A model generated the notes under the pieces. It had not been told where the DNA came from. It saw only the letters and a program-made list of their open reading frames with translations, and did not search any database. DNA of 64,000 bases. Source: an uncultured Myxococcales bacterium (GTDB lineage: Bacteria > Myxococcota_A > UBA9042). Below, piece after piece: positions 7,873-34,878 of this stretch. Where the stretch lies: contig CAIMLR010000027.1 in the NCBI GenBank assembly GCA_903842345.1, forward strand, positions 1 through 64,000, written 5' to 3'. Both the position numbers and the translations under genes were made by a program. Every line of letters begins with the position of its first letter. Position 1 is the stretch's first letter.

Positions 7873-7916
7873 AAAAACCCCTGATGCTTGCGATTCTGAC
7901 TCAAAAAACCAATCGA

Positions 7917-9863
7917 CTAGATCCCTGACGCCGCCGCGACCGCTTGTCGCGCGCCCGCTTTGGCAAATTCCTGAAGCCTTCTCATGATGTCGCTCAAATG
8001 CGTGGACAGCTCCGCCAGCTTCTCCGGCGTCACTTCCCGGCTCTTCATCTGCTCGGTCACTTGTTCGCGCTCGCGCTTCAACTGCCGTTCCTGCAGCCGC
8101 CACGTCACCTGGACCAGCCAGCCCTGCGCCTGATCCGGCTTGCACAGCGGCGCTTCCACCAGCAGGCGCAGGATCAACCGCCGCGCCCGACCGTCTGGCA
8201 GCGCTTGCGCCCAGCCGCTCAGCGTGTCGATGTCGACCTCTTGCTCGCGCGCCACCGCGCACAGGTCGCGCAGCGCGAGGCGAATGCCCGCGTGTTCCAG
8301 CAGATCCAGCGCGCCATACTGCGTCGCCTGACCGCACAGCGCCGGATACCACACCAGTACCGCGCAGAGATCCTGTTCCAGCTTGCCCACTTCCGGCTCG
8401 CCAAACGTCGGGTCAGGGCGCATTTGCTGCTGCGGCTCGGCCTTGGGCGTCGGCGGCGCCAAACGCTGGAGGTAGCGGTCAAAAGTCGCGCGGTGCGGCT
8501 CAATCGCGCCCTTGGTCAGCTGCGCTTGCAGGTAGTTGCGCGCCATGTCGCGGCTGATGCCGTCCTGGATCGCGCTCAGCAGCGGCCCGGCTTTTTGCAG
8601 GATCACCGAGTTGGCCTGCAGGGAGTGGTCAGACTCCGCGACAAGCGCGTCGATGTAGCCGTCAATCAGCGGCGGCGCCTTTTGCAGCAGGTCGCGGAAC
8701 GTTTCTTCGCCAAATTTGCGGACAAAGCTGTCCGGATCCTCGCCCTGCGGCAGGACGACGTAGCTGCCCTCCAGGCCCGCGCCGACCACGACCGGCACCG
8801 CTTTCATCGCCGCTTTGCGGCCCGCGGCGTCGCCGTCGAACACGAGCGCCACGCGATCGGCAAAACGCTTGATTTCCTTGGCCTGGGCGTCGGTCAGCGC
8901 CGTGCCCATCGCGCACACCGCGTTGTCAAAACCGGCCTGCGCCAGCGTGATGACGTCCAGGTTGCCTTCCACGACGATGGCGGTGCGGGTGCGGCGAATG
9001 GCGTCGCGCGCCTGCCACAGGCCAAAGACACAGTCGCCTTTCTTGTAGAAGTGCTTGAAACGGCTGTTCTCTTCCTCGCCGTCCAAGGTGATTTCGCTGG
9101 AGTTGATGTACTTGGCGACTTCCTTGTCGCCCGTCAGATCGCGGCCGCCAAAGCCGACGAGATCGCCAGCCGCGGTGTAGATTGGGAACATCAGGCGGTC
9201 GCGGAAACGGTCGTAGGTGCCGCCCTTGTCGCCGACTTTGGCCAAGCCGATGGCGATGATGTCGTCGCGGTTGAAGCCGCGGCGCACGAGGTGGTCCAGC
9301 AGGTCGGTCCAGCCGATGCCCGCCGCGCCGAGGCCAAAGCGCTCGATCGTCTCCGCCGTCAGCCCGCGCGTCTGGGCGTAATCGTGGGCCTTGCGGCCTT
9401 CCGCCAACTGCAGCCGTCCGCGAAACCAGGCTTGTGCTGCGCGGTCCAACTCCAGCATCCGTCCCCGCGCCGACTTGGCTTCCGCGCGCCGCGCGCTGTC
9501 TTCTGGCCGCTCCGCTTCGCGCTCCAGCGTGATGCCGACGCGCTCCGCGAGCATCTCAATCGCTTCCACAAAGTTCAGTCCGCGCGTTTCCTGGACAAAG
9601 CGAATCACGTCGCCGCCCGCGCCGCAGCCATAGCAGTGGTACAGCTTGAGGCCCGGATTGACGTGAAAGCTCGGCGTTTTTTCTGCGTGGAACGGGCAGC
9701 AGCCCTTGAAGCTGGAGCCGGCTTTCTTGATTTCCACCATCTCGCGCACGATTGCCAGCATGTCCGTCTGCGCCACGACGTTGCGCACGGACTGCATGGG
9801 AATCCGGCCGTGATCGCCACCGCGTCCGTGATCGGCTCTGCGTCCGTGATCCGTGCCGTGCAT
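7917..9863 (-). CDS. dnaG: DNA primase DnaG
   Basis: DnaG (648 residues) makes RNA primers for replication. The N-terminal CHC2 zinc-binding domain is clear ([12 protein letters not shown], then [11 protein letters not shown]). The Toprim core follows, with [11 protein letters not shown] and the acidic [13 protein letters not shown], and a C-terminal helicase-binding region of about 180 residues. The start at 9863 places three copies of a DHGRxx hexapeptide before the normal beginning of the family (GRIP). An internal ATG at 9797 would remove them but would also lose GRIP, so I prefer 9863. Together with rpoD it forms a macromolecular-synthesis pair; rpsU is absent. A strong promoter lies about 160 bases upstream. 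Confidence 0.97.
9798..9851 (-). repeat. three 18-bp imperfect repeats at the dnaG 5' end
   Basis: Three successive 18-bp units on the minus strand encode [12 protein letters not shown] and DHGRIP. The third is the conserved GRIP start of primases, so the two upstream units look like duplications that lengthened the N-terminus. Confidence 0.8.
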
Positions 9864-18072: not shown

Positions 18073-20049
18073 GTGCTGACCTTGGGAATCGCCGGCCACG
18101 TCGATCACGGCAAGACCTCGCTGGTCCGCGCCTTGACCGGCATCGAGACCGACCGGCTTCCGGAAGAGCAGCGCCGTGGCATCAGCATTGAGCTTGGATT
18201 TGCCTGGCTGGACGTGCCGGAAGTCGGGCGCGTTGCGCTCATCGACATGCCGGGCCACGAGCGGTTTGTGCGGCGGATGATCGCCGGCGCGGTCGGCGTC
18301 GATGCCCTGCTGTTGGTTGTTGCGGCCGATGAGGGCGTGATGCCGCAGGGCCGCGAACACCTCGCGATCGCGCAACTGCTGGGAATCCGCCACGGCGCGG
18401 TCGTGCTGACAAAGACGGATTTGTGCGACGCTGACATGCTGGAGATGGCGCGCGACGACCTTGCGCAGCTGACCAAGGGCACGTTCCTGGCCGACGCGCC
18501 GGTCTGGCCGGTCTCCGTGCGCGCGCCCGAGAGCGTCGCGGCGTTGCAGGCGCACCTCCAGGCCTTCTGCCAGGCGCTGCAGGTGGTGCGGCGACAGGAG
18601 ACTGACACGCTCGGGCGGCCGTTCCGGCTGGCGGTCGATCGCAGCTTCTCGTTGAAGGGCCGCGGCACCGTGGTGGCGGGCACCGCGGTGGCGGGCCAAG
18701 TGGAAGTCGAGCAAATGCTGGAAGTGCTGCCGCAGCAGACGACCTTTCGCGTGCGTGGGCTGGAGAGGCACGGCGTGGCGCAGGCGCGCGTCCAGGCACC
18801 CGGGCGCGTGGCGCTGAACCTCGCCGGTGCGACGCTGGACGACGTGCCGATCGGCGCGATGCTCGCAACCCCGGGCACCGTGGCGGTCAGCGATCGGTTT
18901 GACGTGGAGCTGACGCTGCTGCCGCACTGCAAGCCGCTGCCGATCCGCCGCCGCGCGGCAATCCAGCTGGGCACGGCGCTGAGCGAAGGGGCGATCGTGC
19001 TTCTGGAAGGCCAGCCGCTGCAGCCGGGCCAGACCGCGCTCGCGCAGATCCGCCTGGATGCGCCCCAAGCCGTCGCTGCGGGCGAGGGCTTTGTGGTGCG
19101 CGGCTCGCGCGTCGATCCGCGCTTTGGCCAGACGCTGGGCGGTGGTCGCGTGCTGCATCCGCAGCCGCAGCGCCACAAGCTGGGCGATCCGCTGGTCCTG
19201 GAGTCCCTGCTTCGCCTGAGCCAGCCGGATGCGGAGTCGCAGATTCTCGGCGCCGTCGCGCTCGCGCATGGCCGCGGCGCGAGTGACGACGAACTGCAGC
19301 GGATTTGCACCGTGCCGCCGGGACAGCTGCAAAAAGCATTGAAACTGCTGGGGGATCGCAAACAGCTCCAGCGTCTGGGCGCGCCGCCGCGCTGGCTGCA
19401 GCCGCAGGATGTCCAGAACTTGAGCGTCGCGGTGCTTGACGCGGTGCGGCAGTTTCACAAGGCCCAGCCCAGCCGACCGGGCGCGGAGATCGCCGATCTG
19501 CACCGGCAGCTCGCGCCTTGGCTGGAGGTTTCGGCTTTTGCCCAGATCTGCGCGCTGGTGGTGCGTCAGGGCCAGTTGACCGCGCTCGGGACCGCGCTCG
19601 CGCTGCCCGGTTTTGTCGCCAAGGCCACGGCGTCGCCGGAACTGGTGGCGGCCATTGAGGCGCTGCTGGCGGCCCAGCACCTGGCGACGGAGACCCCGGC
19701 GCAGCTGGCGGACATGCTGCAGGTCGACGCCAAGGCGGTCCTGGTGGGCCTGCAGGCGGCCCAGACGGCGGGGCGCGCGATCCGCATCGCGGAGGACTAT
19801 TGGGTGCTGGCAAGCGAGGTGCACGCGGCGCGCGATCGCGTGTTGGCGGCGTTCGTCGATGTGGCGAGCTTCAGCACGGGCGAGCTCAAGGACATCCTTG
19901 GCCTGACGCGCAAGCACCTGATCCCGTTTGCTGAGTATCTGGACGGCGAACGCCTCACAGTGCGCGACCCAGCCGGGAATCGCCGCGTGCGCGAGCGGGC
20001 CCGCGACGCTTGGCTTGCCCGGCAGGCGGTCGACGAGGCGTCGCCGTGA
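18073..20049 (+). CDS. selB: selenocysteine-specific elongation factor SelB
   Basis: SelB (658 residues) delivers Sec-tRNA to UGA codons next to a SECIS hairpin. The G domain has G1 GHVDHGKTS (8-16), a switch region rich in [14 protein letters not shown]3 DMPGHERF and G4 TKTD. EF-Tu-like beta domains follow, and the last 250 residues form winged-helix repeats that bind SECIS RNA ([22 protein letters not shown]). The start is GTG behind GGGGGA. Its presence implies that the organism makes selenoproteins, yet neither selA, selD nor a selenoprotein is in this window. The stop overlaps the GTG start of ogt (GTGA), so the two are translationally coupled. Confidence 0.96.
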
Positions 20050-24899: not shown

Positions 24900-26702
24900 A
24901 TGCAAGTGCGGTTGAACAAACCCAACGCGATTTCCAGGCGGGTAGCGACACCGCTCATTTTGCGCGGGATTTTCCTGCTGCTGGCGGCCGCGTGCGTGCT
25001 CTATCCGCTGGTCGCGACCGCCGCCGCCCGTCACGGCAAAGCCGCCGCGCACGCCAAGCCAGCCAAGAAAGCCAAGGCCTCCAAGGTCCTGCGCGCCAAG
25101 TCGACAGTCCCGGCGGCTCCCGCGCCCGCTGCCCCTGCTGCGGCCGTAGCCAAGCCCGCACCTGCGCTTTCCCTGCCCGCCGCCGCGACGCCGGTGGCTG
25201 CGGTTGCCCTGCCGCGCGCTGCGACGCCTGCCGTCGCCCTTCCGCACGCCGCGACTCCGGTTGCGGCCGCAGCTAAACCGGTTGGCGCCAAGCCTGACGC
25301 GAAGGGCGGCAAGCCCGCCAAAGCAGTTCCCGCCGCCAAGCCCGCTGCCGTTGGCCTTGCCGCCGCGTCGACCCCATCGGCGGCTCCGGCTGCTCCTGCC
25401 GCGGCGCTCGCCCAGCCCTTGCCCGCAGCTGTCTCGCCCACCGCGGCGGCTGCACCGGCCAAGCCGCGCGCCAATGCCGGGCCTGTCGCGACCGCGTGGG
25501 CGCTGCCGCAAGTGCCGCCGGAAAAGCTCAAGAGCGACGTGAAACACGGGTCCATCGTCCGCCTGATCCAGGCCAGCAAGTTCAGCGAAGCGCTCGCGGA
25601 AGTGGACGCGCTTCTGGTCAAGTCCCCGGACGATGACGAACTGCTTGTCCAGCGCGCGCGGCTGCTGTTTTGGCTGGACCGCCGTGAAGCGTCGCGCACC
25701 GTGCTGGCGCCCGTGCAGGTGCGGCACCCGGAAGACGCGGAGATTCGCGAGCTTGACGCCCAGCTGCTGCTTTCTGACGGCGACAAGTCCGGCGCGCTCG
25801 CGCAATACCGCGCGCTGGAACTTGCCGGCGATGGCCGACCGGAATTGCATCAGCGGATCATCGATCTCGCGCTGGAACTGGAAGAAACGCCGACTGTGAC
25901 CCAGGAGCTGAAGTCGGGCGGGCAGCTGAACGACGAGCAGGACATGCTCTACGCGCGGCTTGTGCACCCGTGGTTCTCCGACGTCGCGGGCACCACGACG
26001 CTGCACAGCGGCTCGACCTGGTGGCGGGCGGACGCGCACATCGGTCGGCGGCTCAGCAAGCGCTTCAGCTTCCTGCTGGGCGGGATTTACGAGCGGCGCG
26101 CTTTTGGCACCGAGACGGAGTGGGCCGCCGCAGCAAAGGGCGAGTTCTACTTTGGTTTCAGCCGATTGGACGGCATGATCCACTTTGAAGGGTCGCCCAA
26201 CAAGACCATCCTTCCGGCCTACGACGGCCGCGCGGATTTGGCGCTCAGCATCGTCAAGGAATTCTCGCTCGGGCTGTATGGCCGGCTCGCGCACTACGCG
26301 ACGTCCGCGACGTCCCAGACCTTCCCGACGACGGCGTGGACGCTTGCGCCCAATGTGATTTTCTATGTGAAGGACTGGACTCTTCAGCCCGGCTACATGT
26401 TGATGCACCTCGCGCCCAGCGCGACGACTTCAACAACTTATTATCACACAGGTTTTGTCAAGGCGCGCTGGGAGCCGCATCCGCGCTGGATGGCGTTTGC
26501 GTGGCTGTACCTCGGCACGGATCCCACCTTCGTCGAGCGCTTTGGCATCAACACGCCCGTCGGCACGTCGCTCGTTCTCGGCGGCGAGCACTGGTGGACC
26601 GCGCGCTGGGGCACCCGCCTCTCCGTGTCGCGCGTCCAGCCGTTTGACGCCAAGAACGACCCCTTCACCGACATCACCCTCGTGCTGCGAGGTCGGCTGT
26701 GA
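24900..26702 (+). CDS. YaiO-like outer-membrane beta-barrel with TPR region
   Basis: A 600-residue exported protein. A hydrophobic signal segment (about 20-42) is followed by a long Ala/Pro/Lys-rich linker (45-205), a helical TPR-like region (about 210-330; ASKFSEALAEVDALLVKSPDDDELL) and a C-terminal beta-barrel rich in aromatic strands (about 345-600) ending in LVLRGRL. This domain order matches YaiO and, in principle, PgaA/BcsC exporters, where a periplasmic TPR feeds a polymer into an outer-membrane pore. GGAG precedes the ATG. The stop overlaps the next start as GTGA, so it is coupled to the HEAT protein and the GT2. Confidence 0.8.
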   Translation: MQVRLNKPNAISRRVATPLILRGIFLLLAAACVLYPLVATAAARHGKAAAHAKPAKKAKASKVLRAKSTVPAAPAPAAPAAAVAKPAPALSLPAAATPVAAVALPRAATPAVALPHAATPVAAAAKPVGAKPDAKGGKPAKAVPAAKPAAVGLAAASTPSAAPAAPAAALAQPLPAAVSPTAAAAPAKPRANAGPVATAWALPQVPPEKLKSDVKHGSIVRLIQASKFSEALAEVDALLVKSPDDDELLVQRARLLFWLDRREASRTVLAPVQVRHPEDAEIRELDAQLLLSDGDKSGALAQYRALELAGDGRPELHQRIIDLALELEETPTVTQELKSGGQLNDEQDMLYARLVHPWFSDVAGTTTLHSGSTWWRADAHIGRRLSKRFSFLLGGIYERRAFGTETEWAAAAKGEFYFGFSRLDGMIHFEGSPNKTILPAYDGRADLALSIVKEFSLGLYGRLAHYATSATSQTFPTTAWTLAPNVIFYVKDWTLQPGYMLMHLAPSATTSTTYYHTGFVKARWEPHPRWMAFAWLYLGTDPTFVERFGINTPVGTSLVLGGEHWWTARWGTRLSVSRVQPFDAKNDPFTDITLVLRGRL

Positions 26703-27778
26703 GCAATTTTCGCCTTGAGCTGCTGACCCTGCCGGAGCTGCTGATCATCTTGTTCGTGGCGCTGGAGTTGGTGATCGTGCTCGTCGCGCTCGTCGCGATG
26801 CTCATCGTCCGCAACCGCGCGATCAGCCGTGAAAAAGCGTTCCAGACCACGCGCGCGGCGCTCCTGGACGCCGTGCAGCGGATGACCGGCGCTGAGCCTG
26901 ATCCGACGGCCAAGTCCAAGGCCCTTGCCGCGCTCGGTTCGCTGTCGCGCGACTTTGCCCGCCGCCTGCTGACGGAAATGGCCGAGCTGGCCGGGCCAAC
27001 GGGTACGGCGGCCTTTGAAGAGCTCTACGCAGCGTCCAACCTGGCTGTGGAAGCGCGCGCCAACGCGGTCGCCCGGCCGTGGGAGCGCCTGCGCGTCGTG
27101 CGTGAGGCGCGGGCCCTGCACGATCCCGCGCGCCTGCTCGCCGGCTTGGTGCGCGATGAAGTTCCCGACGTGCGCCTTGGCGCCTTTGAGGCGCTGTGTG
27201 CCTTGAGCCGCGCGGATGAAGCGGTGGTGGCGATTCCGCTGCTGGCGGCCGACGGCCGTCTCAACCGCGTGCGCGCGATCGACGCAATGTCGGCTGCGAG
27301 CCCGCTGCCCGTGCAGGCGATGGTGGAATTGTCCAATTCAGAGATCGCGGACGTGCGTCAGATCGTCGTGGCGGTGCTCGGGACCGCGCGCGTGCGCCAA
27401 GCGGTGCAGGTCGTCGTGCACGCTGTGACCGATCCGGACGCGGAAGTGCGCATTCAGGCGGTGAAAGGCCTGCGCGAAATGAACGATGCGTCGGCCCTTC
27501 CGGTCTGCCTCAGCGCGCTTCAGGACGAACGCTGGGAAGTGCGGTCCGAGGCAGCGCGCACGTGTGGCGCGTTGGGCGGTGGCGGTGCGGCGGAAGCGAT
27601 CGCCGTGCTTTTGGATGACGAGGCGGAGTGGGTTCGGCACAATGCATCGCTCGCGTTGTCCCGCTGTGGGCCGGCCGGTATTGCGGCGCTGCGTTCAGCG
27701 GCGGCGCGCGGCAATGAATCGGCGTCCAGTGCGCTCGCTGAAGCGCGCCTGTCGGTGACGGAAGGCGGGCTGGTCTAG
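26699..27778 (+). CDS. membrane-anchored HEAT-repeat protein
   Basis: A 359-residue protein with one N-terminal membrane segment (about 8-40, LLIILFVALELVIVLVALVA) and a cytoplasmic array of HEAT repeats (about 140-345; e.g. LVRDEVPDVRLGAFEALCAL and DERWEVRSEAARTCGALG). HEAT arrays act as binding scaffolds. The GTG start overlaps the barrel gene by four bases, behind GAGG. Position between a YaiO-like barrel and a processive GT2 suggests that it holds the synthase or a regulator at the inner membrane; this is inference. Confidence 0.8.
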   Translation: MSNFRLELLTLPELLIILFVALELVIVLVALVAMLIVRNRAISREKAFQTTRAALLDAVQRMTGAEPDPTAKSKALAALGSLSRDFARRLLTEMAELAGPTGTAAFEELYAASNLAVEARANAVARPWERLRVVREARALHDPARLLAGLVRDEVPDVRLGAFEALCALSRADEAVVAIPLLAADGRLNRVRAIDAMSAASPLPVQAMVELSNSEIADVRQIVVAVLGTARVRQAVQVVVHAVTDPDAEVRIQAVKGLREMNDASALPVCLSALQDERWEVRSEAARTCGALGGGGAAEAIAVLLDDEAEWVRHNASLALSRCGPAGIAALRSAAARGNESASSALAEARLSVTEGGLV

Positions 27779-27833
27779 TGGTTGTCATGGTACTTGCGCA
27801 AACTGGGTTGATGGAGGTTGAGAGCACACCCGC

Positions 27834-30329
27834 ATGTTGATGGATGTCTTCAATATCCTTGTGCTTCTCTACTTCGTGTTGCTCACGTCGGGCTACATCG
27901 CGCTTTTTGTTGCAGCTTCCGTCGGCATCATCCAGGTGCGCCGCGATTTGGAAGGCAGTTCACCGGAATCCGTGTCCATGCGCGGCCGTGCCACGCTGCC
28001 GATTTCCATCCTGGTGCCTGCGCACAACGAAGAAAAAACCGTGGTGGAGTCCGTGCGCGCGCTGCTCAAGCTGCGCTATCCGGAACACGAAGTGGTTGTC
28101 GTGAACGATGGCTCGTCGGACAAGACGATGAAGCGGCTGCGCACCGCGTTTGCGCTGGAAGCCGTGCCGATCGACCTGCGCTTGGATCTGGCCTGCAAAC
28201 CGATTCGCGCGACCTACCGCTCCGCGATCTACAACCGCCTGATCGTCATCGACAAAGACAACGGCGGTAAAGCCGACGCGCTCAACTGCGCCATCAACGC
28301 CAGCCGCTTTCCGCTGGTCTGCGCGATTGACGCGGATACGCTGATTCTGCCCGACGCCCTGCTGCGTCTCGTGCGGCCATTCCTGACGGACGTGGACGTG
28401 GTCGCCGTCGGCGGCACGATTTGCCTCGCCAATGGCTGCACGATCGAGCGCGGCGCGGTCGTTGAAATGGGCCTGCCCAAGTCCTGGCTCGCGCGCTTCC
28501 AGGTTGTTGAGTACCTGCGCGCCTTCCTCGTGGGTCGCCTTGGCTGGGACCGCATGGGCGGCAACCTCATCATCTCCGGCGCGTTTGGCCTGTTCCGCCG
28601 CTCCGCTGTCACAAATGCCGGCGGCTATGCGCACGACTCCGTGGGCGAGGACATGGAGCTCGTCGCGCGCCTGCGGCACCAGATTCCGCAATGGCTGCAA
28701 GGCCGCGCGATCGCCCATTTGCCCGATCCGGTCGCGTTCACGGAAGCGCCTGAGAGCATTCGGATTCTCGGCAACCAGCGCGATCGCTGGCAGCGCGGCC
28801 TCGCGGACACCTTGTGGCGTCACCGCAAGATGGCGTTCAACCGCCGCTACGGCCCGATTGGCCTCGTCGTGATGCCGTTCTTCGTGGTCTTTGAGCTGTT
28901 CGGACCGATCATCGAGCTCTTCGGCTATTTCTACTTCCTGCTGATGCTCGTCGGCGGCTTCATTGAGCCCGTCTTCACCGGCCTGTTCCTGATTCTCGCG
29001 GTGCTCATTGGCTTTTTGCTGTCGCTCGGCGCGATTTTGCTGGAAGAGCTGTCCCTGTCGTTCTTCCGCGATCGCGGCGACTTGTGGCGCCTCGTCAGCG
29101 TCGCGCTGCTGGAAAACATGGGCTACCGGCAGCTGATCCTCTGGTATCGCATCCGCGGGCTTTGGGGCTACGTGCGGCGCCGCAAGACGTGGGGCCGCAT
29201 GACGCGCCTTGGCTTTGCCGGCGGCACGGGTCCGCGCGGTGAGGCCCGTTCCAGCGCGCTGCCGATTCTCGTCACGTTGTTGCTGGCGTCGATCGTCATG
29301 CTGCCGGTGGGCTGGCTCATCAAGCCGCGCCCGGCGGTCAAGCCGCAGATCCTCGACAAGACGGTGCCGTTTGAGAATCGCCGCGAGCACTTGCGGCTGA
29401 TGTGGCTGTTGACCCAGGCCAAGGTCCAGCCGCCCACGTCGCGGTTCATGTGGGATCCGGTCACGGACTACGTGGGCTGGAATCCGACGACGAAGATGCA
29501 CCGCGAATTGGCCGACGAGGACTTGAAGGAGCGCAACCTGCTCTTCATTTCCGACACCTATGGCGTGTACGTCGACGACTACGACGCGATGCCGCGGCCG
29601 GTTGCCCACTTGGAGCTGTCCAAGAAGATTTTTGGCGGCCTGTCCGACGCGGAGATGGATGTCATCGAGCGCTTTATGGCGCGCGGGGGTCGGGTTTGCG
29701 CGGAATTCAACACCTACGCAACGCCGACGCCGTACAGCGCGCGGGTGCGGATGGAGAAGATCCTGCATGTGAAGTGGTCGGGCTGGGCGGGTCGCCGCGT
29801 GGACGATTTCTCCGACGATCGCGAGATCGCGCAGTGGGTGCAGAAGCGCTGGGCGGAGGAGACGGGCCGGCCGTACGACCTGGAAGGCCCCGGCATTCTG
29901 CTCATCCATGAAGATGGCCGCGTGGTATGCCTGCAAGAAGAGCTGGACATCCCCAAGGATCCGCTGGTGTTGTCCTACGGTTCAGAGAGCGTGCCGGTCA
30001 CCTACTGGTTTGACATCAATGAAGCGACGGACGCCAAGGAAGTGCGCGCGACCTACAAGCTGCACACGCTTGAGCCCGGCGCCGTGCTGCTCGCGAAATT
30101 CGGGATTCCCGACGCGTTTCCGGCGATCGTGTACGACGACAAGCTGACGCACACGTACCTGGCGGGCGACATGACGGACGCCGAAGCGCATCTGGGTCCG
30201 CCTTGGCTCGCGTTTGTCCCGACGGTTCGCCGCTGGATGGCGCAGACGGGCATGGTGCCGGAGGATATTCGCCTGCTGTGGCGCGTGTACGCCCCGACGA
30301 TCACGCGCGTGCTGAACGGCGAACTGTGA
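27834..30329 (+). CDS. processive family 2 glycosyltransferase with extra C-terminal domain
   Basis: An 831-residue inner-membrane polysaccharide synthase. An N-terminal membrane segment (7-37) is followed by a GT-A domain with the nucleotide-sugar residues VVVVNDGSSDK (about 90), the metal-binding DADT (166-169), the catalytic GED (about 270) and QRDRW (315-319), which marks processive synthases such as PgaC and BcsA. Membrane helices lie at about 340-405 and 478-500. The last 330 residues form a soluble domain, probably periplasmic, with ERNLLFISDTYGVY and GGRVCAEFN; it is not a feature of PgaC-type enzymes, and the GATase-1-like look is only a guess. No PilZ domain is seen. Confidence 0.88.
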   Translation: MLMDVFNILVLLYFVLLTSGYIALFVAASVGIIQVRRDLEGSSPESVSMRGRATLPISILVPAHNEEKTVVESVRALLKLRYPEHEVVVVNDGSSDKTMKRLRTAFALEAVPIDLRLDLACKPIRATYRSAIYNRLIVIDKDNGGKADALNCAINASRFPLVCAIDADTLILPDALLRLVRPFLTDVDVVAVGGTICLANGCTIERGAVVEMGLPKSWLARFQVVEYLRAFLVGRLGWDRMGGNLIISGAFGLFRRSAVTNAGGYAHDSVGEDMELVARLRHQIPQWLQGRAIAHLPDPVAFTEAPESIRILGNQRDRWQRGLADTLWRHRKMAFNRRYGPIGLVVMPFFVVFELFGPIIELFGYFYFLLMLVGGFIEPVFTGLFLILAVLIGFLLSLGAILLEELSLSFFRDRGDLWRLVSVALLENMGYRQLILWYRIRGLWGYVRRRKTWGRMTRLGFAGGTGPRGEARSSALPILVTLLLASIVMLPVGWLIKPRPAVKPQILDKTVPFENRREHLRLMWLLTQAKVQPPTSRFMWDPVTDYVGWNPTTKMHRELADEDLKERNLLFISDTYGVYVDDYDAMPRPVAHLELSKKIFGGLSDAEMDVIERFMARGGRVCAEFNTYATPTPYSARVRMEKILHVKWSGWAGRRVDDFSDDREIAQWVQKRWAEETGRPYDLEGPGILLIHEDGRVVCLQEELDIPKDPLVLSYGSESVPVTYWFDINEATDAKEVRATYKLHTLEPGAVLLAKFGIPDAFPAIVYDDKLTHTYLAGDMTDAEAHLGPPWLAFVPTVRRWMAQTGMVPEDIRLLWRVYAPTITRVLNGEL

Positions 30330-30342
30330 TCGGCGCTGCCTG

Positions 30343-31623
30343 ATGCGCCGCGCGATCCTCCTCCTGCTGGGCATGACGCTCCTGTCGGCGTGTCGGCCCT
30401 CGCAGCTGATGCGCACCGACCTGCCGGCGAAATGCCAACAGCCGGATACCCACGCGTTGCTGCAGGTCGCGCGCGAGTCGCTGGTGCTGGAGGCCTATCG
30501 GCCGCGGACGATCTACGACCTGGATGCGACCAACCGGCCGGTGCCGTTTCTCGCCAACCCGCTCGCTGCGGACGCGCTGGCCGTCCTGAGCTATCCCGAG
30601 CCGCGGCGCTTTGCCGGCGGCGACCGCGATTTTGCCCGGATGGCGCACCGGTCCTTCCTCTACGACAACGCGCTTGTCGTGTTGTGGCTTGTGCACGAGG
30701 GCGATCTGGCGCGCGCGCGGCGGGTGCTGGCGACGATCGCCGCCTTGCAGCGCCCGGACGGCGCGTGGGGATTCGGCTTCAACGCCGGCGTTGACGACGG
30801 CTACTACAACGCCGCGTATGTCCGCACGGGCACGGTCGCGTGGGTTGTCTATGCGCTCGCCCACTACCGATCAGCCAGCCGCGACGCGCGCTACGACGCT
30901 GTTCTCGAGCGCGCCACGCGCTGGCTGCTCGCCCAGCGGGACGCGCCGAGCGACCTGTTCTTCGCTGGCTCCGGTCGCTGGATCGACGCCGCGCACTTCC
31001 AACCGCAGTGGCCGGCGCGCTTCTTTGCCACCGAGCACCAGATCGACACGTGGTTTGCCCTGCAGGCCGTCACCCACGCGTGGCCGGCGCTTGCGCAGGC
31101 GCAGCATTTGCCGGGTGTGGCCCGAGCGCTGGCTGCGGCCATCCAGCAGCGGCTGTGGCTGCCCGACGAGCAGCGTTTCGCCCAAGGGCAGGCCGGGAGC
31201 CATCTGGACGCGACGAGCGCGCTGGATGCTGCGGGGACGTGGTCAGCGCTCTGGCTGCTGGCCCAAGGCGATGCGGTGCGGGCACGGCAGGCGCTGGCGT
31301 GGGTCACCGCGCAACACGCGGTGGTGGCGCGCGGATGGAACGGGCTGCGACCGTACCGCGATGCGCCGCCGGAGACGTGGTTCGTTGAAGCGAGCATCGC
31401 CCAACCGCTGGCCCACGCGCGCATGGGCCAGCGTGAGGTTGCGCAGCAGCAGTGGCTGCCGTTGGCGCAGCTGGCCTGCGCGGGCGGCCTGCCGGTGGTC
31501 TATGCCCCGGACTGGCATGCCGATTTTCCGTTCACGCCCGCCACCGCGCCGACGATCTGGTGGTTGATTGCCGCCGAGGAGATCGCCGACGGCGGCGCGC
31601 CGTGGCTTTGGGCTGAGCGCTGA
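30343..31623 (+). CDS. lipoprotein with (alpha/alpha) toroid fold, possible glycan-active enzyme
   Basis: A 426-residue lipoprotein: signal peptide with lipobox LSAC at about residue 17. The mature part is helical with repeated hairpins containing aromatic/Trp motifs (RPDGAWGFGFN, WFALQAVTHAWPALAQ, TWSALWLLAQGD, PTIWWLIAAEE), the look of six-hairpin glycosidase or polysaccharide-lyase folds. I cannot assign a family or the catalytic acid. It starts 13 bases after the GT2, so it is probably co-transcribed and trims or modifies the polymer in the periplasm, as GH8/GH105-like partners do in other loci; this is inference. Confidence 0.7.
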   Translation: MRRAILLLLGMTLLSACRPSQLMRTDLPAKCQQPDTHALLQVARESLVLEAYRPRTIYDLDATNRPVPFLANPLAADALAVLSYPEPRRFAGGDRDFARMAHRSFLYDNALVVLWLVHEGDLARARRVLATIAALQRPDGAWGFGFNAGVDDGYYNAAYVRTGTVAWVVYALAHYRSASRDARYDAVLERATRWLLAQRDAPSDLFFAGSGRWIDAAHFQPQWPARFFATEHQIDTWFALQAVTHAWPALAQAQHLPGVARALAAAIQQRLWLPDEQRFAQGQAGSHLDATSALDAAGTWSALWLLAQGDAVRARQALAWVTAQHAVVARGWNGLRPYRDAPPETWFVEASIAQPLAHARMGQREVAQQQWLPLAQLACAGGLPVVYAPDWHADFPFTPATAPTIWWLIAAEEIADGGAPWLWAER

Positions 31624-33394: not shown

Positions 33395-33558
33395 GCGGTT
33401 GCCTTGGCGCGTCGGACGGGCGCGCGGTGCGGCAGAGTATCTGCGACGTTGGCCTTGGCGTCACCCCCGCGTCGCAGCAATGTCGCATTCCTGACACCGA
33501 GCGCGGAATGGTGCAATCGTTTGACCGCATCGCGACGCGCGTTTACGCTCTTGCGGCG

Positions 33559-34878
33559 ATGAACGGATTTACTTACGAGCCTGCCCACCAGATTCAGCAC
33601 CGGAACGCCGGACTGCTGCTGCTCCTGCTGGTTTTTGCCGCCGCTTGCGAAGGCGAGCGCCAAAGTGCTCCGGAATCCGCGGTCGTGCTGGCTCGCCACA
33701 TTGACCAACTGCTGGACGATCCGAGCGGCCTGCCGCGCGAGGCTTCAGCGACCGAAATGGCTGCCGACGCGACGGCCGCACAGCCGGCTGCTGCCGCTTC
33801 GCCGACCGTGCCCGAGGCGGATGCCGGGGTCACGGCGCCCGATGTCCAGACGGCGCCAGACGTGAAGACCGAGCCGGATGTGCCGGCAACGCCCGACGTG
33901 AAGGCGACGCCGGACGTGTTTCAGGCGCCCGACGTGAAGCTGGCCCCCGACGTGCAGCAGAAGCCCGATGCCGCGAACAAGCCGGACGCGGCGGCGCCGA
34001 TTGTGCCGATTCCAGTGCGCCGCGACGGCACGCCGATCGCCAAGCCTGAACCCACACCGAAGTCCGACGTGCCGGTCGCCAAGCCGGTGCCGGCGACGAA
34101 GCCGGAGCCGGTCGTCAAGCCGGCCAAAATGACCGCCGCCGAGCGCAAGCAACAGGCGAAATTGGCTGCCGCAGCCGCCAAGGAAGAAGCCAAGGCCGCC
34201 GCGAAGAAAGCCAAGGCCGACAAGAAGAAGCACGCGCTGGCCGCGGTGCGCGACAAGAAGAAGCGCGCGGCGGCGGCCAAGCAGAAGAAAGCAGACGCCA
34301 AGGCAGAGGCAGAAGCGGCCAAGAAGGCGGCGATCGCGGCCAAGAAAGCTGCGGCGTGGGCCAAGAAGCACCCGAAGGCGGCACAGCAGGCCGTTCCCGT
34401 CAAACCGGAGGCGGCAAAGCCGGCCAAGCCGGAGCCGGAAAAGCCCGCGAAGCCGGAGCCTGCGAAGGCCGGCAAGGCGGATCCCGTCAAGCCTGAGCCC
34501 GCCAAGGCAGCCGCAACGGCACCCGCGGCAGTGGCCGGTGGCGATGCAACGGAGCTGTTCTTCAGCGGCAAACGCAAGCAGGACGCCGGCGACTTCAAGG
34601 GCGCAATCGAGGATTTCAAGGCCTCGCAGGCGTCGCGCCCAAGTCCGCGGACGCTGACGGCGCTCGGCCGCGCCTATTTTGACGCCGGGGAAATGAATGC
34701 CGCGACTGGCGCGTTGCGCAAAGCGGGCAACCACGACGACGCGCAGCTGCTGCTCGCCACGCTGTACCAGCAGACGGACAAAGCGGACAAGGCGCGCAAA
34801 GTGTATGAAGAGTTCTTGAAGGCGCATCCCGATCATCCCAAGGCCGATTGGGTGCGCAAGTTGCTGAAAACGCTGTAG
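33559..34878 (+). CDS. lipoprotein with PDV and Lys/Ala-rich repeats and C-terminal TPR
   Basis: A 439-residue protein, probably a lipoprotein: the ATG at 33559 gives a signal peptide ending in VFAAAC; starts further upstream lack a signal. After a variable stretch come about eight PDV/PDA repeats (33835-33993) and then a Lys/Ala-rich region (about 185-330) likely to form a long charged helix. The final 110 residues look like TPRs (ELFFSGKRKQDAGDFKGAIEDF, TLTALGRAYFDAGEMNAA). It probably spans part of the periplasm and binds another envelope component. Exact function unknown; a weak ribosome site leaves the start uncertain. Confidence 0.7.
   Translation: MNGFTYEPAHQIQHRNAGLLLLLLVFAAACEGERQSAPESAVVLARHIDQLLDDPSGLPREASATEMAADATAAQPAAAASPTVPEADAGVTAPDVQTAPDVKTEPDVPATPDVKATPDVFQAPDVKLAPDVQQKPDAANKPDAAAPIVPIPVRRDGTPIAKPEPTPKSDVPVAKPVPATKPEPVVKPAKMTAAERKQQAKLAAAAAKEEAKAAAKKAKADKKKHALAAVRDKKKRAAAAKQKKADAKAEAEAAKKAAIAAKKAAAWAKKHPKAAQQAVPVKPEAAKPAKPEPEKPAKPEPAKAGKADPVKPEPAKAAATAPAAVAGGDATELFFSGKRKQDAGDFKGAIEDFKASQASRPSPRTLTALGRAYFDAGEMNAATGALRKAGNHDDAQLLLATLYQQTDKADKARKVYEEFLKAHPDHPKADWVRKLLKTL
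33835..33993 (+). repeat. PDV peptide repeats
   Basis: Six-residue units of the form x-x-PDV are repeated about seven times (APDVQT, APDVKT, EPDVPA, TPDVKA, TPDVFQ, APDVKL, APDVQQ), followed by two PDA units. The DNA copies are not identical, so this is an old, diverged repeat. Confidence 0.9.

Follow-up and report, generated by a model that had tools for sequence, protein, structure and literature searches.

We examined a locus in a 64,000-nucleotide stretch of DNA (hereafter the window; contig positions 1-64000) from the 5.85 Mb draft genome of an uncultured Myxococcales bacterium. It consists of four genes on the forward strand. Gene 1 (24900-26702, +; 600 amino acids, aa) encodes a signal peptide, an Ala/Pro-rich linker, TPRs and a C-terminal YaiO-type outer-membrane barrel, and gene 2 (26699-27778, +; 359 aa, GTG start) an N-terminal transmembrane (TM) helix with HEAT repeats. 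Gene 3 as a whole (27834-30329, +; 831 aa) is a GT2 synthase fused to a second domain, GT_C: its first part (27834-29243, +) is a processive-type GT2 synthase domain, aa 1-470, and its second part (29265-30329, +) comprises a TM helix at aa 478-496 and GT_C, predicted to be periplasmic. Gene 4 (30343-31623, +; 426 aa) encodes a lipoprotein with an LSAC lipobox, Cys17 and an (alpha/alpha)6 toroid. The original prediction, made from the sequence alone, had proposed a compact polysaccharide synthesis and export locus of four same-strand open reading frames. The GTGA overlap that it described for genes 1 and 2 lies at 26699-26702, and the gaps that follow are 55 bp and 13 bp, as it had said. Its reading of the domains, namely a TPR/barrel protein, a membrane HEAT protein, a processive GT2 and a toroid lipoprotein, agrees with profiles, motifs, lipobox and models.

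The proteins can be set beside the parts listed in a 2020 survey of synthase-dependent polysaccharide operons, which counts five systems (PMC7112194). Gene 1 begins with a hydrophobic segment (aa 24-42) preceded by basic residues, followed by TPRs at about aa 222-289 (TPR_19, 9.3e-6) and the barrel at about aa 374-594. The match of gene 1 to the YaiO model TIGR04390 has an E-value of 3.9e-6, with 27.0 and 28.9 bits, under the curated cut-off of 32. Homologous barrels from the same operon elsewhere match TIGR04390 in 28 of 31 cases, the best at 4.5e-61, and gene 1 is therefore a YaiO relative via intermediates, as had been claimed. For the survey's TPR domain and outer-membrane pore, then, the locus offers TPR_19 and a YaiO-type barrel with a predicted pore role.

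The product of gene 2 matches HEAT_2 at 1.4e-28 and has a single TM helix (aa 14-32). Its net charge is -1 ahead of the helix and +3 behind, and under the positive-inside rule the HEAT domain is then on the cytoplasmic side; basic residues behind the helix are also present in distant HEAT members. As originally noted, none of the four proteins matches the BcsB, PgaB, PgaD or PilZ families, and BcsB (PF03170) is absent from the genome. With no PilZ or BcsB match at the locus, the cyclic di-GMP (c-di-GMP) receptor or co-polymerase of the survey's list has no counterpart by these families. The HEAT protein may be a stand-in for such a PilZ/BcsB-type subunit.

The GT2 domain of gene 3 matches Glycos_transf_2 at 5.6e-20, and its NDGS, DADT, ED and QRDRW motifs are invariant down to 43-50% identity. 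Against PDB sequences the GT2 profile matched cellulose, chondroitin and hyaluronan synthases, and the cellulose and hyaluronan synthase matches reach past the nucleotide-binding part. TM segments lie on both sides of the catalytic domain. Together with the processive motifs, they correspond to the survey's inner-membrane GT2 synthase, an activity predicted here from sequence. The best NCBIfam match is PgaC_IcaA (E 3.6e-36), at 125 bits versus a cut-off of 422.3; on score and on the tree position described below, orthology to PgaC or BcsA was rejected. The original prediction was right about the synthase domain but overlooked the fused C-terminal GT_C behind its own TM helix. GT_C covers about 330-350 aa (gene 3 aa ~480-831) and forms a conserved family of its own with the recurring motifs DTYGVY, EFN..A.PT and W.GW.GR. 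Neither Pfam nor a sequence search of the PDB gave a usable match. Its AlphaFold2 model (pLDDT 90.1) is closest among PDB structures to the ThuA-like 4jqs (E 1.8e-4) and 4pxy (4.0e-4), then to GH42 galactosidases; TM-scores normalised to the query are low, at 0.32-0.37, and thus indicate a ThuA/GATase1-like core-fold resemblance rather than a family assignment. GT_C is probably periplasmic, which would give the system a periplasmic partner. It is a separate gene directly after GT2 in genomes G023 (L068) and G094 (L070), and in two Neomarinimicrobiota loci it is placed after the barrel. Four Bacillota proteins of ~1000 aa carry GT_C at the N-terminus (L121:10362-13595, L126:10373-13642, L127:4138-7215 and L142:4800-7850). 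Their C-terminal remainder has no Pfam match; by eye it looks like a TIM-barrel hydrolase and is possibly an undescribed glycosidase family.

Gene 4 was modelled as an (alpha/alpha)6 toroid with a pLDDT of 94.8. Neither a Pfam family at useful score nor a usable PDB match by sequence was found for it. With Foldseek, the model gave 236 PDB matches at E <= 1e-3. At the head of the list are methylmannose polysaccharide hydrolase, rhamnosidases and invertases, and epimerases also occur in it. Across an alignment of 23 sequences E231, D235, D295 and E349 never vary and Cys17 hardly does. The fold matches and the four invariant acids may point to a toroid glycoside hydrolase, but epimerases share the fold; judging from the model, gene 4 is probably a polysaccharide-active enzyme. 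For the periplasmic modification enzyme of the survey's list (PMC7112194) there are two modelled candidates, the ThuA-like core of GT_C and the glycosidase-type toroid, both with predicted activity only. A cytoplasmic toroid was also considered. The lipobox of the window protein and of several family members argues against it, in keeping with the lipoprotein originally proposed; the lipobox is absent from some homologues with automatically chosen starts.

Within the window's family (f1), a full-length GT2-GT_C gene is present in 22/22 genomes, the window's included, and the order barrel-HEAT-GT-GT_C-toroid is constant across them, the set being cut by contig ends in G003, G006 and G020. Such constancy is more than chance. 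Two outcomes had been named in advance as refuting the proposal, loss of synteny in relatives and an unrelated barrel with a cytoplasmic toroid; we looked for both and found neither. In the phylum, a close GT2 (E <= 1e-60) occurs in 38 of 237 genomes. GT_C occurs in 24, every one with GT2, and adjoins it except where it is on a separate contig, as in G233 and the second copy of G014. Toroid matches at E <= 1e-38 are no further than about 2 kb from GT2, with exceptions at 6 kb (G165) and on a separate contig (G006); three weak matches (G127, G192 and G204) are not near GT2. The window genome has a second GT2 (L080, G000:C50:7847-8968) in an open frame of ~1500 aa; this GT2 falls among PgaC-like GT2s and not in the HEAT branch.

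We then consider the pair of HEAT and GT2 genes beyond the phylum. Contigs were scanned with a profile of the GT2 alignment alone and the best 80 loci by GT2 similarity were kept, which makes this a biased sample of the class. The upstream test was confined to the 74 loci with at least 1.3 kb of upstream DNA. A neighbouring HEAT gene was scored in 72 of these, and 73 have it directly upstream once L103 is corrected, where an over-extended GT2 start had hidden a HEAT gene at 7904-8980. At the remaining miss, L135, HEAT and barrel are about 4 kb off. Across all loci used, the HEAT gene ends at most 60 bases inside the GT2 match or at most 250 bases ahead of it in 98 of 105; the seven exceptions are four contig-end cases and L069, L073 and L135. 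An Emticicia neighbour annotated as 'hypothetical' is HEAT by profile (E 1.2e-18). The pair is found in at least 15 phyla, with some archaea among the carriers, so that the design is not a local oddity. It is also present on annotated plasmids of Deinococcus radiophilus, Erythrobacter, Haloarcula, Mesorhizobium, Bacteroides, Legionella, Planococcus and Devosia, with GT2 identity as low as 28%. The plasmid-borne loci are L163, L164, L165, L166, L171, L172, L174 and L175, and carriage on plasmids suggests horizontal spread. No HEAT neighbour accompanies the GT2s of Deinococcus taeanensis and Sulfitobacter, which have 27-28% identity and fall on the PgaC side. The Legionella copy is flanked by nucleotide-sugar dehydrogenase and epimerase genes, a hint of uronic acid in that species only.

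In a quick IQ-TREE tree of 50 GT2 rows (LG+C20), one branch with SH-aLRT 100 sets 43 rows apart from BcsA, PgaC, YaiP and four other GT2s. It holds 41 rows labelled HEAT, Emticicia, which has HEAT, and L073. The Escherichia coli BcsA, YaiP and PgaC are on long branches and their exact places are therefore unsure. Distances between GT2s correlate with those of the partners (Mantel correlation 0.77 for HEAT over 84 loci, 0.82 for GT_C over 17 and 0.51 for the barrel over 47); none of these values was reached in any of 2000 permutations, and species relatedness is still included in them. At L155:7864-9001 (Calidithermus chliarophilus) the HEAT gene upstream of GT2 appears to be split over two reading frames with the first half in the frame of GT2, through a sequencing error, decay or a frameshift. 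Two Gemmatimonadota loci have in common a small gene family of 168-171 aa directly after GT2 (L104:10405-10920 and L139:10354-10860).

Barrels and nearby signalling genes were counted at the 55 loci whose flanks were complete. In Bacillota (11), Actinomycetota (4) and an archaeon (1), 0/16 loci have the barrel, against 25/39 of the others (Fisher p 8e-6), and the predicted pore is an optional, envelope-dependent part of the HEAT-GT2 system. A Clostridia metagenome-assembled genome with short flanks (L122) does show barrel matches. Receiver-domain genes lie within 4.5 kb at 47/55 loci and GGDEF genes at 23/55, and Pfam confirms receiver, Hpt, GGDEF and kinase domains in example neighbour genes. 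The original prediction missed these receiver and often GGDEF genes, which are near most relatives and near none of the window's family. A HEAT-type protein of a haloarchaeal chemotaxis region is cited in one paper as required for signal response (PMC7022856).

From gene order, conservation, co-occurrence, domain families and folds, which are directly established, we infer activity, localisation, secretion and regulation, and we find it fairly likely that this operon makes and exports a polysaccharide in a synthase-dependent manner and belongs to a distinct HEAT-GT2 class that is widespread. Its GT2 domain would polymerise a sugar nucleotide and pass the chain through the inner membrane. HEAT, with one TM helix and a cytoplasmic solenoid, would bind the synthase as an adaptor for its assembly or regulation, taking the place that belongs to PilZ domains or PgaD in known systems. 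For most relatives, a signal from neighbouring receiver-domain, and often GGDEF, proteins probably passes through it; the window's family is without nearby signalling genes and would have to draw this input from another source. GT_C, which is tethered to the synthase and would lie in the periplasm, may bind or modify the emerging chain, the lipoprotein toroid could trim or edit it by analogy with BcsZ on cellulose, and the TPR/YaiO barrel would take it across the outer membrane. Several observations weigh against this reading. At just ~220-240 aa, the YaiO-matching barrel is perhaps not large enough to serve as a pore for a polymer. No barrel lies near roughly one in three non-monoderm loci. 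The counts of receiver and GGDEF genes come without a matched background rate. No sugar-nucleotide genes adjoin the window locus, and no receiver or GGDEF genes were found there or at any other locus of its family.

These observations bear on the alternatives. HEAT might be a structural subunit or assembly chaperone like PgaD rather than a signal adaptor, with the receiver genes serving other targets. We regard this as a serious if somewhat less probable option. HEAT is kept where no receiver gene is near, as in the whole window family, and its single TM helix could pack against the synthase. However, its large solenoid retains invariant positions down to 22% identity, and the second HEAT-branch GT2 of G014 (L073:9255-11611, G014:C16, -) is directly preceded, in the usual place of HEAT, by the gene for an FHA-domain protein that ends in a C-terminal TM helix, and this suggests that the sensory module can be exchanged. 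Only one such case was seen, and an adaptor swap is a possible explanation of it.

A second alternative is that GT2 is not a synthase of an export polymer but acts in short glycolipid or envelope modification, with YaiO and the toroid acting there and no export pore. The GT2 family includes non-processive enzymes too, and the small barrel, its patchy presence among non-monoderm loci and the missing sugar-nucleotide genes would all fit. Against these stand the invariant QRDRW, a motif of processive synthases, the cellulose and hyaluronan synthase matches with TM segments flanking the catalytic domain, and a TPR barrel beside the synthase that is absent from monoderm phyla; we therefore consider this alternative unlikely. 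A divergent pga system making poly-beta-1,6-GlcNAc, with HEAT, GT_C and toroid replacing PgaD and PgaB, is very improbable: PgaC_IcaA is the best NCBIfam match of GT2, and PgaA is likewise a TPR barrel whose model is touched by 23 of the 31 gene 1 homologues, but GT2 falls far short of the PgaC_IcaA cut-off and outside the PgaC side of the tree, the four proteins match no deacetylase family and the GT_C fold is ThuA-like.

A synthase-dependent export operon would have several known relatives in design. In pgaABCD and icaADBC, PgaA, an outer-membrane porin with TPRs, goes with PgaC, a processive GT2, and the locus has counterparts of both; it differs in having HEAT, GT_C and toroid where PgaB and PgaD are unmatched, and its GT2 is in a separate branch. 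The bcsABZC operon has the same functional layout, in which a GT2 synthase and its periplasmic partner are joined by BcsZ as the (alpha/alpha)6 enzyme and BcsC as the TPR barrel, but the window genome is without BcsB, the synthase without PilZ, and the toroid is closest to other glycosidase families. The E. coli cluster yaiO-yaiP-yaiS combines a YaiO barrel with the GT2 YaiP; no HEAT gene is annotated there, and YaiP lies outside the HEAT-GT2 branch on its long branch. RefSeq plasmid neighbours in Mesorhizobium, Deinococcus, Erythrobacter and Legionella have the same gene order of barrel or TPR, HEAT, GT2. Unlike the window, they have no toroid or GT_C annotated alongside, several have a response regulator upstream, and no function is assigned. 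The parts of the system are annotated singly in RefSeq. Neither HEAT nor YaiO is mentioned in the main text of the survey (PMC7112194), nor HEAT in a paper on the P. stutzeri EPS273 locus. The full-text literature searched, with most subscription journals and preprints outside its coverage, gave no description of a HEAT-GT2 polysaccharide system; the matches that were read dealt with type III effectors, haloarchaeal chemotaxis or unrelated genes. The system is apparently a variant of the synthase-dependent polysaccharide type that has not been described.

More interesting than the single window locus is the whole HEAT-GT2 class. It may represent one more general type of synthase-dependent machinery for surface polysaccharides, with members across many bacterial phyla and in some archaea. 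The membrane-anchored HEAT adaptor would link the synthase directly to phosphorelay or c-di-GMP signals, diderms would add the YaiO pore and certain lineages GT_C or toroid enzymes. We see this broader proposal as evenly poised. If true, surface or biofilm polymers would have in this class a large source that is so far undescribed, and Stutzerimonas, Mesorhizobium, Deinococcus and Exiguobacterium are among the culturable relatives for testing it.

The surroundings of the locus were named by reading translations. Genes like rpiB, nrdR, ribD and ribE lie on its 5' side, and a phosphate permease and a DUF47-like gene on its 3' side, on the opposite strand. The rpiB-nrdR-ribD-ribE genes are upstream in 18 family loci and not in L058, L059 and L061; one contig ends too early to judge. 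Third-position GC is 0.80-0.86 in the four genes and 0.79 and 0.86 in two neighbours, giving no sign of recent acquisition. Elsewhere the window genome has 10 GGDEF and 8 PilZ matches. No tRNA genes were found within the 64-kb window. A SelB-like selenocysteine-specific elongation factor is encoded at window positions 18073-20049. Two genes downstream of the locus, at 33427-34878, lies a gene for a TPR protein with short PDV-type repeats (TAPDVQTAPDVKTEPDV...) and Lys/Ala-rich stretches; it was considered as a second barrel and rejected, since its barrel-profile match comes from the TPRs.

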